Shown: positions 5,873 through 64,000 of the stretch, piece after piece
Layout of the letters: every line of letters starts with the position of its first letter
Position numbering within the stretch: position 1 is the stretch's first letter
Source of the DNA: Arthrobacter ruber
Lineage (GTDB): Bacteria; Actinomycetota; Actinomycetes; Actinomycetales; Micrococcaceae
Length of the DNA: 64,000 bases
Assembly (NCBI RefSeq): GCF_002954225.1
Contig: NZ_PPTH01000015.1
Coordinates: 248,001-312,000 of the forward strand
Direction of reading: 5' to 3'
Translations under genes and position numbers: made by a program
The notes under the pieces: generated by a model
What the model was told of the DNA's origin: nothing
Database searches by the model: none
What the model saw: the letters and a program-made list of their open reading frames with translations, nothing else

Positions 5873-6772
5873 ATGGCGGTGACGCCGCAGGCCGAGATCG
5901 ACATCACGCCGTCGCTGGTCCGGGCCCTGCTCATCGCCCAGGCACCGGACCTGGCGCATCTCCCGCTGCACCCCGCCGGCAGTGGATGGGACAACACCCT
6001 CTTCCGGCTGGGGGAGGAGCTCGTGGTGCGCCTGCCCCGGCGGGCGGTGGCCGACGAACTGATGGCGGCGGAGCAGCACTGGCTCCCGGGGCTCACCGCG
6101 TCCCTCGGAGTTCCCACGTCGGCGCCCGTGCGCGCCGGCACACCCGGCCCGGACTACCCATGGCACTGGTCCGTCTGCCGATGGATCGACGGGGTCGGCG
6201 GCATCACCGTCCCGCGGGCCGGGCGTTGCTCCGCGGCCGCCCCGCTGGCGCGGTTCCTCGTGGACTTCCAGCGCCCCGCTCCGCCCGACGCCCCGGTCAG
6301 TCCCGTGGGCCGCGGCGGTCCGCTGGCAGCGCGCGACGACGTCGTCCGGACGCGGCTCGCGTCGCTCCCGGCGATACCCGGTGTCCCTGCCCCGCTGCTG
6401 ACGGAGGTCTGGGAGACGGCCCTCGCGGCACCGGTCTGGTCGGGGGCGCCGCTCTGGCTGCACGGGGACCTGCACCCGGCCAACGTGGTCCTCGGGCCGG
6501 ACGGCGCGCTGGCCGGCGTCGTCGACTTCGGGGACCTGTGCTCCGGGGATCCTGCGACCGATCTCGCCGCGGCCTGGCTGCAGTTCGACGCCGCAGGCCG
6601 GTCCGTGTTCCGGGCCGGACTCAAGGCCCTCCGCGCCACCGACGCCGCGACGTGGGACCGGGCGCGCGGCTGGGCGCTGAGCATGGGCAGCGCCCTGGTG
6701 GCGGCGTCGGACGATTCCCCGGAGTTCCTCGCCCTCGGGGTTGAGATCCTGATCGAGGTCCTGACCGACTGA
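5873..6772 (+). CDS. Aminoglycoside-phosphotransferase-family kinase
   Basis: 299 residues with the protein-kinase-like APH fold. The start ATG has a perfect AGGAGG 5 nt upstream (5862-5867). Visible landmarks are AGSGWDNTLFRLGEELVVRLPRR (glycine loop and Lys/Arg strand), WLHGDLHPANVV (catalytic loop with Asp and Asn) and GVVDFGDLCSGDPATDLA (metal-binding DFG equivalent). The active site therefore looks intact. Such proteins phosphorylate many small molecules; drug resistance should not be assumed from the family name. It stands between gatB and tdh without tight coupling to either. Confidence 0.85.
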   Translation: MAVTPQAEIDITPSLVRALLIAQAPDLAHLPLHPAGSGWDNTLFRLGEELVVRLPRRAVADELMAAEQHWLPGLTASLGVPTSAPVRAGTPGPDYPWHWSVCRWIDGVGGITVPRAGRCSAAAPLARFLVDFQRPAPPDAPVSPVGRGGPLAARDDVVRTRLASLPAIPGVPAPLLTEVWETALAAPVWSGAPLWLHGDLHPANVVLGPDGALAGVVDFGDLCSGDPATDLAAAWLQFDAAGRSVFRAGLKALRATDAATWDRARGWALSMGSALVAASDDSPEFLALGVEILIEVLTD

Positions 6773-6805
6773 GGGGGAGGTCCGCCCGCGGGGCCGCTGG
6801 TAGTG

Positions 6806-6818
6806 TTGCCCCGGGCAA
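6806..6818. promoter_or_regulatory. 13-bp palindrome upstream of tdh-kbl
   Basis: TTGCCCCGGGCAA is a perfect 6+1+6 palindrome, 74 bases before the tdh start, in the only intergenic space that can drive tdh-kbl. It could be an operator for an unknown regulator. Short GC-rich palindromes are common by chance here. Confidence 0.3.
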
Positions 6819-6892
6819 TATCCCGCCCGGCACTCGTACCGCCCAGGCCCGGCCCATCCCGCCGGTGTCGGCGGCATGGAAGGAACTGTCCA

Positions 6893-7936
6893 GTGAAGGC
6901 GCTGTACAAATCCGGGGCTCGTCCCGGTTTCGAACTCGTGGACCGGCCCGAACCCGACGCAGGGTGGGGCGAGGTCAAGATCCGGGTCATGACCACCGGC
7001 ATCTGCGGCACGGACCTCCACATCGAGAGCTGGGACTCCTGGGCGCAGGGCATGATCAAGGCGCCCCTCATCCCCGGCCACGAGTTCTACGGCGAGGTCG
7101 TCGCCCTCGGGGACGGGGTCCGCGACGTGCGTGTCGGCGACCGCGTCTCCGGCGAGGGCCACATCGTCTGCGGTATCTGCCGCAACTGCCGCGCCGGCCG
7201 CCGCCAGATGTGCATCCACACCTCGAGCGTGGGAGTGCAGCGCGACGGGGCGTTCGCCGAGTTCGTCGTCGTCCCCGAGACCAACGTCTGGGTGCACGAC
7301 GCCACCATCACGCCCGAACTGGGCGCCGTCTTCGACCCGTTCGGCAACGCCGTGCACACCGCCCTGAGCTTCCCGCTCGTCGGTGAGGACGTGCTGATCA
7401 CGGGCGCGGGTCCCATCGGACTCATGGCCGTCGCGGTCGCCCGCCACGCCGGTGCCCGCAAGATCGCCATCACCGACGTCTCCGCGCCCCGCCTCGAGCT
7501 CGCCCGCGGCGTCGGCGCCGACATCGCCGTCGACGTCAGCCGCATGCGCATCGCCGACGCCCAGCACGAGCTCGGGATGAAGGAGGGCTTCGACATCGGC
7601 ATGGAGATGTCCGGCCACGCCACCGCCCTGCCCGAGATGATCGACAACATGAACCACGGCGGGAGGATCGCCCTGCTCGGCCTGCCCTCCGGCCCCATCT
7701 CCATCGACTGGGGCAAGGTGGTCACGCACATGCTGACGCTCAAGGGCATCTACGGTCGTGAGATGTTCGAGACCTGGTACGCCATGAGCGCCATGCTGCA
7801 GTCCAACAGGAGCCTGCGCGAGGCGGTCGCGTCCGTGGTCACCGACTGCCTGCCGGCGAGCCAGTGGCAGCAGGGCTTCACAACGGCGCGTGACGGCGCC
7901 AGCGGCAAAGTGGTCCTCGACTGGACCACCCTCTAG
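6893..7936 (+). CDS. tdh: L-threonine 3-dehydrogenase
   Basis: 347 residues, zinc-dependent medium-chain dehydrogenase oxidising L-threonine to 2-amino-3-ketobutyrate with NAD+. GTG start behind GGAAGGAA (6878-6885). Catalytic zinc ligands are Cys38, His63 and Glu64 ([16 protein letters not shown]). The structural zinc loop has four cysteines at 93, 96, 99 and 107. The Rossmann motif GAGPIG is near residue 170. It is followed 14 nt later by kbl, the next pathway enzyme; that neighbour separates it from other alcohol dehydrogenases. Confidence 0.96.
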
Positions 7937-60554: not shown

Positions 60555-62054
60555 CTAGCGCGGCTCGGGCGTGTGCAGCCGCGCCAGCACGCGTGAGGCC
60601 GACGCGGGCCGCCGTCCCGCCGTCGCGCGGGACACGAGCACCATGGTGAGGAACGCCGCCGGCACCGTCCACAGGGCCGGCTGACCCAGCCAGACCCACC
60701 GCTCGCCCGCCCCCGGTCCCAGCAGCGCCGTCGCGGTGATCGCCCCGCCGCACAGGACGGCGCCCGTGAGCATGCCCGCGATGGCACCGGCGTCCGTCAG
60801 CCCCCGCCACCAGATGCCGAGCAGCAGCAGCGGGCAGATCGTGGACGCCGTGAAGGCGAACACGGACCCCACGCTGCCGGCGAGGGCGAGGCTGTCGGTC
60901 ATCAGCGCGACTCCGAGGGGCACCACCGCCGAGAGCAGGGCCGCGCTCCGGAAGCCCCTGACGCTGCCGTGGAAGAACTCCTGGCTGACCACCCCGGCGA
61001 GCGACACCACGAGGCCGCTCGTCGTCGAGAGGAACGCGGCGAAGGCCCCGGCCGTCACGAGGGCGGAGAGGAGATCGCCCGTGGCGCCGTCGAAGATGCG
61101 CCCCGGGAGCAGCAGGACGGTCGCGTCGGCTGCTCCGGCCGCGGCGAGTTCGGGCGTGTGGATGCGGCCGAGGATCCCGTACACCGTGGGGAACAGGTAG
61201 AACACCGAGAGCAGGCCGAGCACGATCAGGGTGGTCCTCCGCGCCGACGCGCCGTCCGGGTTCGTGTAGAAGCGGACCAGTACGTGGGGCAGGCCGAGCG
61301 TCCCGAACAGCAGTGCGATGACGAGCGAGATGGTGCCGTACAGCGAGGCGTCCGCCGCGGTGTCGAGGTCCGCGGTGAACGCGCTGCCACCGGCCGTGAC
61401 GGCCCCGCCGTCGGTGCCGAGGCGGAACAGGATGAAGGCCACGGGGACCGCGAGGGCCGTCAGCTTCAGCCAGTACTGGAAGGCCTGCACGAAGGTGATG
61501 GAGCGCATCCCGCCGGTCACCACGCTCAGGCACACCACCACGACGACGGCCAGCGGCCCCGCCCAGGCGGGCAGGCCCGTGGTGATGCGCACCGTCAGGG
61601 CCGCCCCGTGCAGCTGCGGCACGATGTACAGCCAGCCGACGACGACGACGAGCAGGCTCGTCACGCGGCGCACCAGCAGGGAGTCAAGCCTGGCCTGGGC
61701 GAAATCGGGGATGGTGTAGGCGCCCGAACGGCGCAGGGGAGCGGCGACGAACAGCAGCAGCATGAGGTAGCCGGCGGTGTAGCCGATCGGGAACCACAGG
61801 GCGTCCACCCCGGAGACGAGGATGAGCCCGGCGATGCCGAGGAAGCTGGCCGCCGAGAGGTACTCGCCGCCGATCGCCGAGGCGTTCCACCACGGGCGCA
61901 CGGTGCGGGACGCCACGTAGAAGTCCCCGGTGGTCCGCGAGATGCGCAGCCCGTAGATACCGATGAGCACGGTGCTGAGCGACACGAGGACGAGGGCCGT
62001 GTAGCCCACGGCCGGGCTCAGCTGCAGCAGGCCGTCGTCGAGCGCGTCAGTCAT
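60555..62054 (-). CDS. Sodium:solute symporter, cation/acetate (ActP/MctC-like) type
   Basis: 499 residues, about 13 helices. SSS-family landmarks: DFYVASRTVRPWWNASAIGGEYLSAASFLGIAGL, GYTAGYLMLLLFVAAPLRRSGAYTIPDFAQARL, VTGGMRSITFVQAFQYWLKL and LGLPHVLVRFYTNPDGASARR. This is the monocarboxylate (acetate/pyruvate/propionate) branch. The ATG lies 8 nt inside the small-subunit gene. It is the fourth gene of a LytS-LytTR-small subunit-symporter set, so its expression is probably set by that sensor pair. Confidence 0.9.
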   Translation of the reverse strand: MTDALDDGLLQLSPAVGYTALVLVSLSTVLIGIYGLRISRTTGDFYVASRTVRPWWNASAIGGEYLSAASFLGIAGLILVSGVDALWFPIGYTAGYLMLLLFVAAPLRRSGAYTIPDFAQARLDSLLVRRVTSLLVVVVGWLYIVPQLHGAALTVRITTGLPAWAGPLAVVVVVCLSVVTGGMRSITFVQAFQYWLKLTALAVPVAFILFRLGTDGGAVTAGGSAFTADLDTAADASLYGTISLVIALLFGTLGLPHVLVRFYTNPDGASARRTTLIVLGLLSVFYLFPTVYGILGRIHTPELAAAGAADATVLLLPGRIFDGATGDLLSALVTAGAFAAFLSTTSGLVVSLAGVVSQEFFHGSVRGFRSAALLSAVVPLGVALMTDSLALAGSVGSVFAFTASTICPLLLLGIWWRGLTDAGAIAGMLTGAVLCGGAITATALLGPGAGERWVWLGQPALWTVPAAFLTMVLVSRATAGRRPASASRVLARLHTPEPR

Positions 62055-62430
62055 CGTCGACGAGGTCCTGGAAGCGCCGCTCGTTGCGGGCCGCGCTGCG
62101 CACGTAGAGGACGGCGCACCCGATGACGAGGGGGTAGACCCCGAGGCCGAGGAGCAGCCAGGGGACGGGGACGGTCAGGACGGTGACGCCGTCGATGTCG
62201 GGGAAGACCGTGAGCAGTACCGGGATCCCGATGAGGATGACCAGGAAGCCGCCCGCGACCACGAGCGCCAGGCGCAGCTGCGACCGGATGAGGGACTCGA
62301 CGAACAGCTGGCCCACCTCGGACTGCTCGGCCATCTCGCGGGCCACGGGGAAGGACGCCCCGGTGGCCCGGGCCGCCGTCCTCGGCGCCGTGACCCGCAC
62401 GCGGCGCGGGACGTCGGACTGCTCCTCCAT
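62047..62430 (-). CDS. Small membrane subunit of the SSS symporter (DUF485-like)
   Basis: 127 residues; ATG at 62430 (an in-frame GTG lies just upstream). Two helices (about 60-80 and 90-112) joined by a loop with PDIDGV, then the basic-acidic end RSAARNERRFQDLVDDD. This layout matches DUF485-type proteins encoded directly before acetate/monocarboxylate symporters. The N-terminal 50 residues are Arg/Ala/Glu-rich. Overlap of 8 nt with the symporter gene indicates translational coupling and probably a complex. Confidence 0.78.
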   Translation of the reverse strand: MEEQSDVPRRVRVTAPRTAARATGASFPVAREMAEQSEVGQLFVESLIRSQLRLALVVAGGFLVILIGIPVLLTVFPDIDGVTVLTVPVPWLLLGLGVYPLVIGCAVLYVRSAARNERRFQDLVDDD

Positions 62431-62485
62431 CACGGGCGCCCGGAAGGGGCCGACCGCCGGCCTGCGCGCTGCATCCTGCCCGCCG

Positions 62486-63205
62486 TCAGGAGCTCGGGCG
62501 GAGGCGCGTGGCCTCGAGCTTCTCGCGGACGTCGGGCAGGTGCCGCCGGCTGACCGGCAGCTCGGCGTCCCCGACGAACAGGCTCGCACGGCCCGCGCCC
62601 ATCCGGACCTTCCGCACCTGGTCCATGGCGACGAGGTAGGAGCGGTGCGTGCGGAGGAACCCGGCCTCGGCCCACTGGCGCTCGAGGTCGCTGAGCGGGA
62701 TGCGGATGAGGTAGCTGGCCTCGGCGGTGTGCAGGCGCGCGTAGTCGCCCTGAGCCTGGACGTAGCGGACGTCGTCGCGCCGGATCATCCGGCTGACGCC
62801 GCCCTGGTCCACGGTGATGACCTCCGGCGCCGGCGTCGAGCCCTCCATGAGCTCGCAGACGCGCCGCACTGATTCCGCGAGGCGTTCGGTCCGCACGGGC
62901 TTCAGGAGGTAGTCGACGGCGCGCAGCTCGAAAGCCTCGAGGGCGCGGTCCTCGTCGGCGGTGACGAACACGACGGCGGGTGGACGCGCGAAGCGGGAGA
63001 TGACCCGGGCGATGTCGAGCCCGGACAGGGACGGCATGTGGATGTCGAGGAACAGGGCGTCGACGCTGTGCTGCTCGAGGGCCCGCAGGGCCTGCGCCCC
63101 GCTGGAGGCGCGGTGGATGGTGCCGATCCGGGCGTCCTTGCCGAGCAGAAAGGCCAGTTCCTCGACGGCGGGGAGCTCATCGTCGGCGATGACAACATTG
63201 ACCAT
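62486..63205 (-). CDS. LytTR-type response regulator
   Basis: 239 residues. Receiver domain: acidic pair Asp8/Asp9 in VVIADDELP, phospho-acceptor Asp54 in LFLDIHMPSLSG, conserved Lys in DYLLKPV. The C-terminal LytTR DNA-binding domain (about 135-235) contains RRDDVRYVQAQGDYARLHT, TLxDLE-like PLSDLERQW and FLRTHRSYLVAMDQV. ATG 19 nt after the kinase stop. It should bind direct repeats near its target promoter, plausibly in front of this operon or the symporter. Confidence 0.93.
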   Translation of the reverse strand: MVNVVIADDELPAVEELAFLLGKDARIGTIHRASSGAQALRALEQHSVDALFLDIHMPSLSGLDIARVISRFARPPAVVFVTADEDRALEAFELRAVDYLLKPVRTERLAESVRRVCELMEGSTPAPEVITVDQGGVSRMIRRDDVRYVQAQGDYARLHTAEASYLIRIPLSDLERQWAEAGFLRTHRSYLVAMDQVRKVRMGAGRASLFVGDAELPVSRRHLPDVREKLEATRLRPSS

Positions 63206-63224
63206 GCGTCCTAGGTTACGCGGT

Positions 63225-64000
63225 TCATGCCCGGTGATCGGGCTGCGACTTGGGCACGCGCATGGTGATGAGCGTCCCGGCGCCGGGGGCGGTGTCGATG
63301 ATGAGTCCGTGGTCGTCGCCGTACACCTGGCGCAGGCGCGAGTCGACGTTCCGCAGGCCAACGTGCACGTCCTCGGTGTGTCCGGCGAGGACCGAGCGCA
63401 GGTGGTCGGGGTCGATCCCCACGCCGTCGTCCTCGATGGTCACCTCGGCGAACGCGCCGACATCGTGCGCGGTGATGGTGATGTTCCCGACGCCGTCCTT
63501 CGAGTCCAGGCCGTGGCGCACCGCGTTCTCGACGAGGGGCTGGAGGCTGAGGAAGGGGATGACCGTGCTGAGGACCTCGGGACCGATCTCGAGGCTGACC
63601 CGGAGGCGGTCCCCGAACCGCGCGCGTTCGAGCAGCAGGTAGCGGTCGATGCTGCGCAGTTCCTCGGCCACCGTGGTGAAGTCGCCGTGGCGGCGGAACG
63701 AGTAGCGGGTGAAGTCGGCGAACTCCACCACCAGCTCGCGCGCCCGCTGCGGATCGGTGTTGATGAAGGACGCGATGGCGTTGAGCGAGTTGTAGATGAA
63801 GTGCGGGCTGATCTGCGCGCGCAGGGCCCGGACCTCCGCCTCCGCGAGCAGCCGGCGGGAGGAGTCCAGTTCCGCCAGTTCCACCTGCGTGGACACCCAC
63901 CCGGCGAGTTCGTTGGTGGCGCGGACGAGCCCGGCGTTGACGTCGCCGGCGAAGGCGCCGACCGTACCCACCACGCGGTCGTCCACGCGGACGGGGGAGA
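63225..64000 (-). CDS. LytS-type sensor histidine kinase (5' part beyond window)
   Basis: C-terminal 258 residues seen; the N-terminal sensor part lies beyond base 64000. His_kinase domain: LRAQISPHFIYNSLNAIASFINTDP with the phospho-accepting His, followed by ERARFGDRLRVSLEIGP and the ATPase N-box LQPLVENAVRHGL, G-box DDGVGIDP and GLRNVDSRLRQVYG. This is the LytS/YpdA branch, paired with the LytTR regulator. Residues before the kinase (VGTVGAFAGDVNAGLVRATNELAGWVS) resemble the end of a GAF-type or similar sensor region. Confidence 0.92.
   Translation of the reverse strand, partial: SPVRVDDRVVGTVGAFAGDVNAGLVRATNELAGWVSTQVELAELDSSRRLLAEAEVRALRAQISPHFIYNSLNAIASFINTDPQRARELVVEFADFTRYSFRRHGDFTTVAEELRSIDRYLLLERARFGDRLRVSLEIGPEVLSTVIPFLSLQPLVENAVRHGLDSKDGVGNITITAHDVGAFAEVTIEDDGVGIDPDHLRSVLAGHTEDVHVGLRNVDSRLRQVYGDDHGLIIDTAPGAGTLITMRVPKSQPDHRA

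Follow-up and report, generated by a model that had tools for sequence, protein, structure and literature searches.

Genes at the locus

At the end of a 64,000-nucleotide (nt) stretch of the Arthrobacter ruber genome (contig NZ_PPTH01000015.1, positions 248,001 to 312,000; hereafter the window), four consecutive open reading frames (ORFs), all on the minus strand, encode a histidine kinase, a response regulator, a small DUF485-like membrane protein (D1), and a sodium:solute symporter (SSS) family protein (S1). This two-component system, the transporter genes around it, and the candidate operator through which it may act are the subject of the present analysis. A preliminary description, made from the window alone, had presented the four genes as a self-contained unit for organic acid sensing and uptake, in which a LytS kinase, a LytTR regulator, a DUF485-like subunit, and an acetate-type SSS symporter are co-transcribed. 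The arrangement itself was borne out by the ORF coordinates, with gaps of 19 nt between kinase and regulator and 55 nt between regulator and D1 and an 8-nt overlap between D1 and S1. The kinase gene (63225..64000, with its stop at 63225 in the ORF list) is truncated by the window. Its N-terminus, which the preliminary description had advised looking for beyond the edge, was found in the locus covering that region (L002, in which coordinates plus 57000 give window coordinates), where the gene occupies 6225-7412. The start thus lies 412 nt past the edge, at L002 7412 or window-equivalent 64412, giving a full length of 395 amino acids.

The kinase matches the Pfam families His_kinase (83.8 bits) and HATPase_c (46.8 bits), has a possible GAF-like domain and one predicted transmembrane helix, and retains an invariant phospho-acceptor, His204. 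The regulator (62486..63205) combines a receiver domain (Response_reg, 75.9 bits) with a LytTR DNA-binding domain (72.8 bits), retains an invariant Asp54, and is the sole LytTR match in the genome; against the NCBIfam equivalog for BtsR it scores 138.5 bits, below the cut-off of 246. D1 (62047..62430) resembles DUF485 (PF04341) with an E value of 9.1e-5, in line with the earlier reading, but its 22.8 bits fall under the curated cut-off of 28. Membership of S1 (60555..62054) in the SSS family likewise stands (Pfam SSF, 153.3 bits), whereas its designation as acetate-type finds no support from family scores, as S1 remains under every NCBIfam cut-off, including those of MctC (172.6 vs 670) and the ActP subfamily (175 vs 750); the closest family, VC_2705, reaches 212.8 against a cut-off of 320.75. 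A PDB sequence search with S1 returned weak SGLT1 matches only. A simple scan of L002 3400-9800 found no terminator-like and no sigma-70-like sites.

Just past the window edge, 221 nt from the kinase gene and divergent from it, lies a second DUF485–symporter pair on the plus strand, consisting of D2 (L002 7634-8017; DUF485, 123.5 bits) and S2 (L002 8014-9651), which reaches 914.7 bits against the MctC equivalog cut-off of 670. The two-component pair is therefore flanked by two different DUF485–symporter pairs, and the notion of a self-contained unit had to be given up. MctC of Corynebacterium glutamicum, to which S2 corresponds by this cut-off and S1 does not, is described in the accessible part of PMC5626966 as required for growth on pyruvate.

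The two symporters also differ at the positions aligned to 5nv9 that we take to form the Na2 sodium site. The hydroxyl residues are kept in S1 (Ser in 102/104 and Thr in 104/104 aligned sequences) and replaced in S2 (Ala and Val in 97/98), which makes a link to Na+ plausible for S1 and some other coupling probable for S2. The candidate interpretation of S1 as a degenerate symporter without an ion site was accordingly rejected. Beyond mctC (L002 9730-12630), an Lrp/AsnC-type regulator and an E1-beta dehydrogenase subunit were named by reading the sequence, and their order is retained in most Arthrobacter-type loci.

The gene order, whose conservation the preliminary description had proposed to check, is widely conserved. 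Among 80 loci from named genomes, taken from at least 579 relatives, kinase, regulator, D1, and S1 follow one another in 76, which argues that the arrangement is not due to chance. The four exceptions comprise two loci that end at a contig end after the regulator (L066 and L114) and two that are rearranged (L122 and L127). D2–S2 accompanies the unit in 74 of the 80 loci; the pair is divergent in 66 of them, and in the other 8 it follows downstream in the same orientation. Within the genus, 33/35 genomes contain a full-length regulator match of at least 81% identity; the remaining two are the incomplete genome G026, which has no match, and G028, in which the regulator match is split into two pieces separated by a gap (L041 7064-7896), reflecting either an assembly error or a broken gene, although the mctC and OFA operators described below are strong. 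Outside the genus, a regulator match of 48-67% identity occurs in 9/22 genomes of the order, one of them in two pieces. In a sample of the phylum, a kinase match at E<=1e-30 was obtained for 54/198 genomes, and wherever the kinase is at least 50% identical, regulator, D1, and S1 are nearby (13/13 genomes). Six large genomes of family f21 have the order regulator–D1–S1–kinase. Two loci labelled as other organisms, L056 (WNZI01000023.1, Vibrio cholerae 35D) and L100 (NZ_JADHDY010000005.1, Sporosarcina beigongshangi), contain an Arthrobacter-type cluster and share the Arthrobacter-type neighbours cdsA, a DivIVA-like gene, AsnC, and E1-beta; these genomes are probably mislabelled.

A candidate operator upstream of mctC

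Upstream of the D2–mctC pair lies a direct repeat, nCCGTTCrnCGCa, in two copies 20-21 bp apart, which we consider a putative LytTR-type operator (L002 7451-7483, with a third half-site extending to 7504; window-equivalent 64451-64504). For comparison, the Bacillus subtilis LytT site, which was mutated and gel-shifted, consists of two boxes of 13 nt with 8 nt between them in the account available from PMC5626966. From 101 loci entered into the repeat analysis, 92 regions upstream of D2 were obtained (80 divergent and 12 co-oriented); the other nine, namely L035, L036, L120-L123, L127, and L132, which have no D2 in the locus, and L126, with a gap of more than 900 nt, were scanned separately, and no site was found in L035. 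Direct repeats with a 21-bp period precede D2 in 54/80 divergent regions (9.6 expected) and 7/12 co-oriented regions (1.3 expected). Other periods (15, 20, and 33 bp) are also somewhat enriched, in 25-26 of the 80 vs 9-10 expected. The shuffles behind these expectations preserved single-base content only, whereas those used for the matrix and the palindrome below moved two-base blocks.

The held-out regions were then scored with a matrix built from 23 loci of the genus. A site above the 99.9% shuffle level was present in 57/57 divergent and 12/12 co-oriented regions, compared with 0/57 and 1/12 in the reverse-strand control; a count of 81/81 is in-sample, and the held-out counts are used in its place. 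Six of the 92 regions score under 18 bits in held-out scoring, and 1.62 Mb of flanking sequence contained one other site of at least 18 bits. The period is 21 bp in 68 regions, 20 bp in 22, and 22 bp in 2, and the site lies at a median distance of 183 nt from the D2 match. Outside the training set, it remains with D2–mctC at 25-33 bits in 5/5 loci from genomes whose kinase locus is rearranged or extended (four Nonomuraea genomes and an Aeromicrobium metagenome-assembled genome, MAG), so that it accompanies mctC even at a distance from the sensor operon, and precedes D2 at 29.5-35.1 bits in three genomes of family f22 that carry the operon. A further f22 genome (G150) with mctC and no kinase match has no site before mctC. 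The 18 kinase-less mctC control loci from 17 genomes score at most 10.1 bits, except for L271, with 17.1 bits about 400 nt before D2; 16 of these controls are only 47-57% identical in S2, L276 offers only 73 nt before D2, and L275 lacks a D2 match.

The position of the repeat bears on the proposal that S1 is the regulated uptake system of one autoregulated operon, as originally described. The tight spacing and conserved order of the four genes agree with this, and the operator of divergent loci sits between both transcription units and could serve both. However, the operator is directed at D2 in 92/92 scored regions, and in the 12 co-oriented regions, it separates S1 from D2; whole-locus scans of these regions revealed no other site of at least 18 bits, either upstream of the kinase or elsewhere. 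Autoregulation with S1 as the regulated transporter is thus improbable. On these grounds, S1 is probably not the transporter under control of the operator, and this role probably falls to another one.

A second element lies between the operator and D2, where a CRP/GlxR-like palindrome, AGTGATGGGAGTCACA, occupies L002 7549-7564 (window-equivalent 64549-64564). Palindromes of this type with at least 9/10 matches occur before D2 in 61/80 divergent regions, compared with 0.2 expected, which suggests a cyclic AMP-type co-control of mctC.

Transporter genes behind the candidate operator

The operator is found before other transporter genes as well. In L120 and L123, two MAG loci from genomes without an mctC match, a site of modest score (17.9 and 24.0 bits, respectively) follows S1 and precedes a gene for an acetate permease of the SatP type (170 and 177.6 bits in Pfam), and in L120, the next gene encodes an acetate-CoA ligase (972.4 bits vs a cut-off of 724.95). 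As these are MAG contigs, the missing mctC may reflect incompleteness. In 4/6 genomes of family f21, the sole site with zero mismatches lies upstream of one OFA-type gene of the major facilitator superfamily (MFS). The OFA-type gene of the genus is preceded by a site of at least 10 bits, 150-169 nt upstream, in 17/27 genomes, with 30-35 bits in five of them, and scores of 5-8 bits occur at about the same place in 3 more; the best reverse-strand score is 4.1. One such OFA-gene site is located at L197 2946-2979. The OFA genes of G129 and G150 have no site.

A search for further targets in the A. ruber genome by a fixed 20-bp pattern was dropped, as it returned 54 places with three mismatches or fewer vs 15 for control patterns. 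The mctC site alone matches this pattern with zero mismatches, and three sites with two mismatches have matrix scores of 13.8, 10.4, and <8 bits. Across eight genus genomes, all seven sites with zero mismatches belong to the OFA gene (six) or mctC (one), while one of 10 one-mismatch sites lies at mctC and four of the other nine represent one sequence that appears coding-like by eye. In addition, a 32-bit operator-like site was observed beside an extracytoplasmic function (ECF) sigma-factor gene in G161 (L148 6318-6350), 1.5 kb from the kinase.

The direct repeats that the preliminary description had recommended searching for therefore exist, but they belong to D2–mctC and, as a weaker copy in the A. 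ruber genome, to an OFA gene located far from the operon. A LytTR site lying only at unrelated genes had been named there as evidence against the proposed unit; the sites do lie at other genes, but these encode monocarboxylate transporters, and the suggested tie between a LytTR two-component system and small-acid uptake is upheld.

Input to the kinase

The kinase is not a textbook LytS, as it has one predicted transmembrane helix and lacks the 5TMR_LYT domain (PF07694; no Pfam match up to E 10) that defines LytS, the name under which it had been introduced. According to the portion of PMC10653868 available to us, this domain is present in all LytS-like kinases. A single helix is likewise predicted in 33/37 scored near relatives, whereas 15/15 more distant kinases that were examined have two.

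Alternatively, the signal could arise in the cytoplasm, with the kinase using its GAF-like domain to sense a metabolite or the redox state and with S1 being just another transporter in the operon. The AlphaFold model of the kinase from Arthrobacter sp. Leaf234 (L053), which is 95% identical to that of the window, shows a confidently predicted alpha/beta domain N-terminal to the kinase core (mean predicted local distance difference test score 82.7; predicted template modeling score 0.49). Residues 35-184 of this model align to chain 3p01_C of a Nostoc regulator, which we take to be a GAF domain (Z 14.5, root-mean-square deviation 3.9, 148 aligned residues). The structure comparison was otherwise filled by kinase domains, with this one GAF-like row only, and Pfam GAF gives no match even at E 10. 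A C-x4-CP-like motif in the GAF-like region, a possible redox or metal site, would suit such sensing and is common to many relatives that do not belong to the Arthrobacter clade, but it is absent from this genus and from other operon carriers (e.g., L033, L107, and L149-L151). Moreover, the relevant passages of PMC10653868 and PMC5626966 describe BtsS and B. subtilis LytS as responding to outside pyruvate. Cytoplasmic sensing is a realistic possibility, to which we give somewhat less than even odds.

A different input would be provided by S1 itself. S1 together with D1 could detect the acid at the membrane and gate the kinase, so that S1 would not, or not mainly, serve as an uptake system. This idea concerns the input side and is compatible with control of mctC through the operator. 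S1–D1 accompanies the kinase and regulator in nearly all loci, as counted above in named genomes (76/80) and the phylum sample (13/13), and it stays while the genes behind the operator vary among MctC, SatP, and OFA types; on this ground, S1–D1 may belong to sensing, and S1 is possibly a co-sensor and constant partner of the kinase. The missing 5TMR_LYT domain fits this picture, as do CrbS and RpuS, in which a symporter domain is fused to a kinase that controls actP, acs, or mctP in the available text of PMC5715377 and PMC9100948. Nonetheless, the Na2-site hydroxyls are kept in S1 as in a working symporter, a complex cannot be shown by gene neighbourhood alone, and an SSS gene is present in only 7/15 loci of the more distant kinases; two of the eight loci without one (L198 and L207) are short contig ends. 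We therefore regard a sensing role for S1–D1 as a hypothesis that is less likely than not.

Discussion

Taken together, these results lead us to propose that a LytTR two-component system of Actinomycetota turns on the uptake of C2-C3 monocarboxylates through mctC and an OFA-type gene, a reading to which we assign a probability of roughly 0.8. The gene order, the repeat and its conservation, and the genes preceded by it can be read directly from the sequences. The signal would reach the short kinase, which would phosphorylate the LytTR regulator; the regulator would then bind the direct repeat upstream of the divergent DUF485–mctC pair and activate this pair, and in the present genome, it may also activate the distant OFA/L-lactate-type MFS gene at a weaker copy of the site. 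The kinase–regulator–DUF485–symporter operon would act as the constant signalling unit. The ligand is presumably acetate, pyruvate, lactate, or propionate, because the three kinds of genes behind the operator carry small monocarboxylates by family name.

Several observations weigh against this proposal. The 92 scored regions are mutually related and do not count as independent. In family f21, the mctC copies examined (8 loci from 6 genomes with the operon) have no site of at least 16 bits despite the presence of the regulator. A strong site is also missing from G247. G035 carries the operon, but a search at E<=1e-60 gave no mctC match, and its 16-kb locus contains no site reaching 16 bits. As for the OFA-type gene, the product of the f21 gene scores 305.7 bits, below the cut-off of 320 for the L-lactate MFS transporter; 7/27 genus genomes have no site there; the site in the A. 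ruber genome itself is weak (14.2 bits); and G161 lacks a site at its OFA gene, with the strong site beside the ECF sigma gene instead.

The proposed system resembles BtsS/BtsR–BtsT and YpdA/YpdB–YhjX of Escherichia coli in combining a LytTR regulator and a His_kinase-family kinase with monocarboxylate transporter targets, and YhjX, listed as an MFS transporter in the part of PMC5431176 at hand, parallels the likely OFA-type target. It differs from them in the lack of the 5TMR_LYT receptor, in the low score of its regulator against BtsR, in having an SSS symporter with DUF485 as the main target, and in the symporter–DUF485 pair within the sensor operon. LytST–PftAB of B. subtilis shares the adjacent transporter target and the operator geometry of 13-nt boxes 8 nt apart, whereas PftAB belongs to another transporter class, and no symporter is described in its sensor operon in the accessible sections of PMC5626966. 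The SLC5/STAC kinase systems CrbS/R and RpuS/R, as far as the available portions of PMC5715377 and PMC9100948 describe them, also link a symporter to a kinase, have regulons with ActP, a DUF485 protein, acs, or MctP, and show a direct repeat in the promoter region of mctP. In those systems, symporter and kinase form one fused protein, whereas the symporter described here stands on its own and the regulator is of LytTR type. The kinase of the window has no SSF match and is an ORF separate from S1, so it is not an SLC5/STAC fusion. It is conceivable, though we lean against it, that S1–DUF485 forms a free-standing monocarboxylate detector gating a nearly sensor-less kinase, with the regulated transporter behind one conserved operator exchanged during evolution among three unrelated families, SSS MctC, SatP, and OFA-type MFS proteins. 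By analogy, and with the same reserve, such a detector could be a split version of the SLC5–kinase fusions with a LytTR partner.

A review of two-component systems in Streptomyces coelicolor lists LytTR among the regulator types (PMC9739842, in the part available). In the openly licensed PubMed Central literature, no paper was found that describes control of mctC, satP, or an OFA gene by a LytTR system in actinobacteria, which is no proof of absence. Our analysis provides a candidate operator and regulon, open to testing, for a two-component system that many actinobacteria possess. With one operator placed before varying transporters, the sensing part, which is constant, can be told apart from the output, which is replaceable. 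Should S1 indeed be a co-sensor, this would suggest a route from separate proteins to symporter–kinase fusions such as CrbS, and how the kinase partner of a LytTR regulator may work without a 5TMR_LYT receptor.

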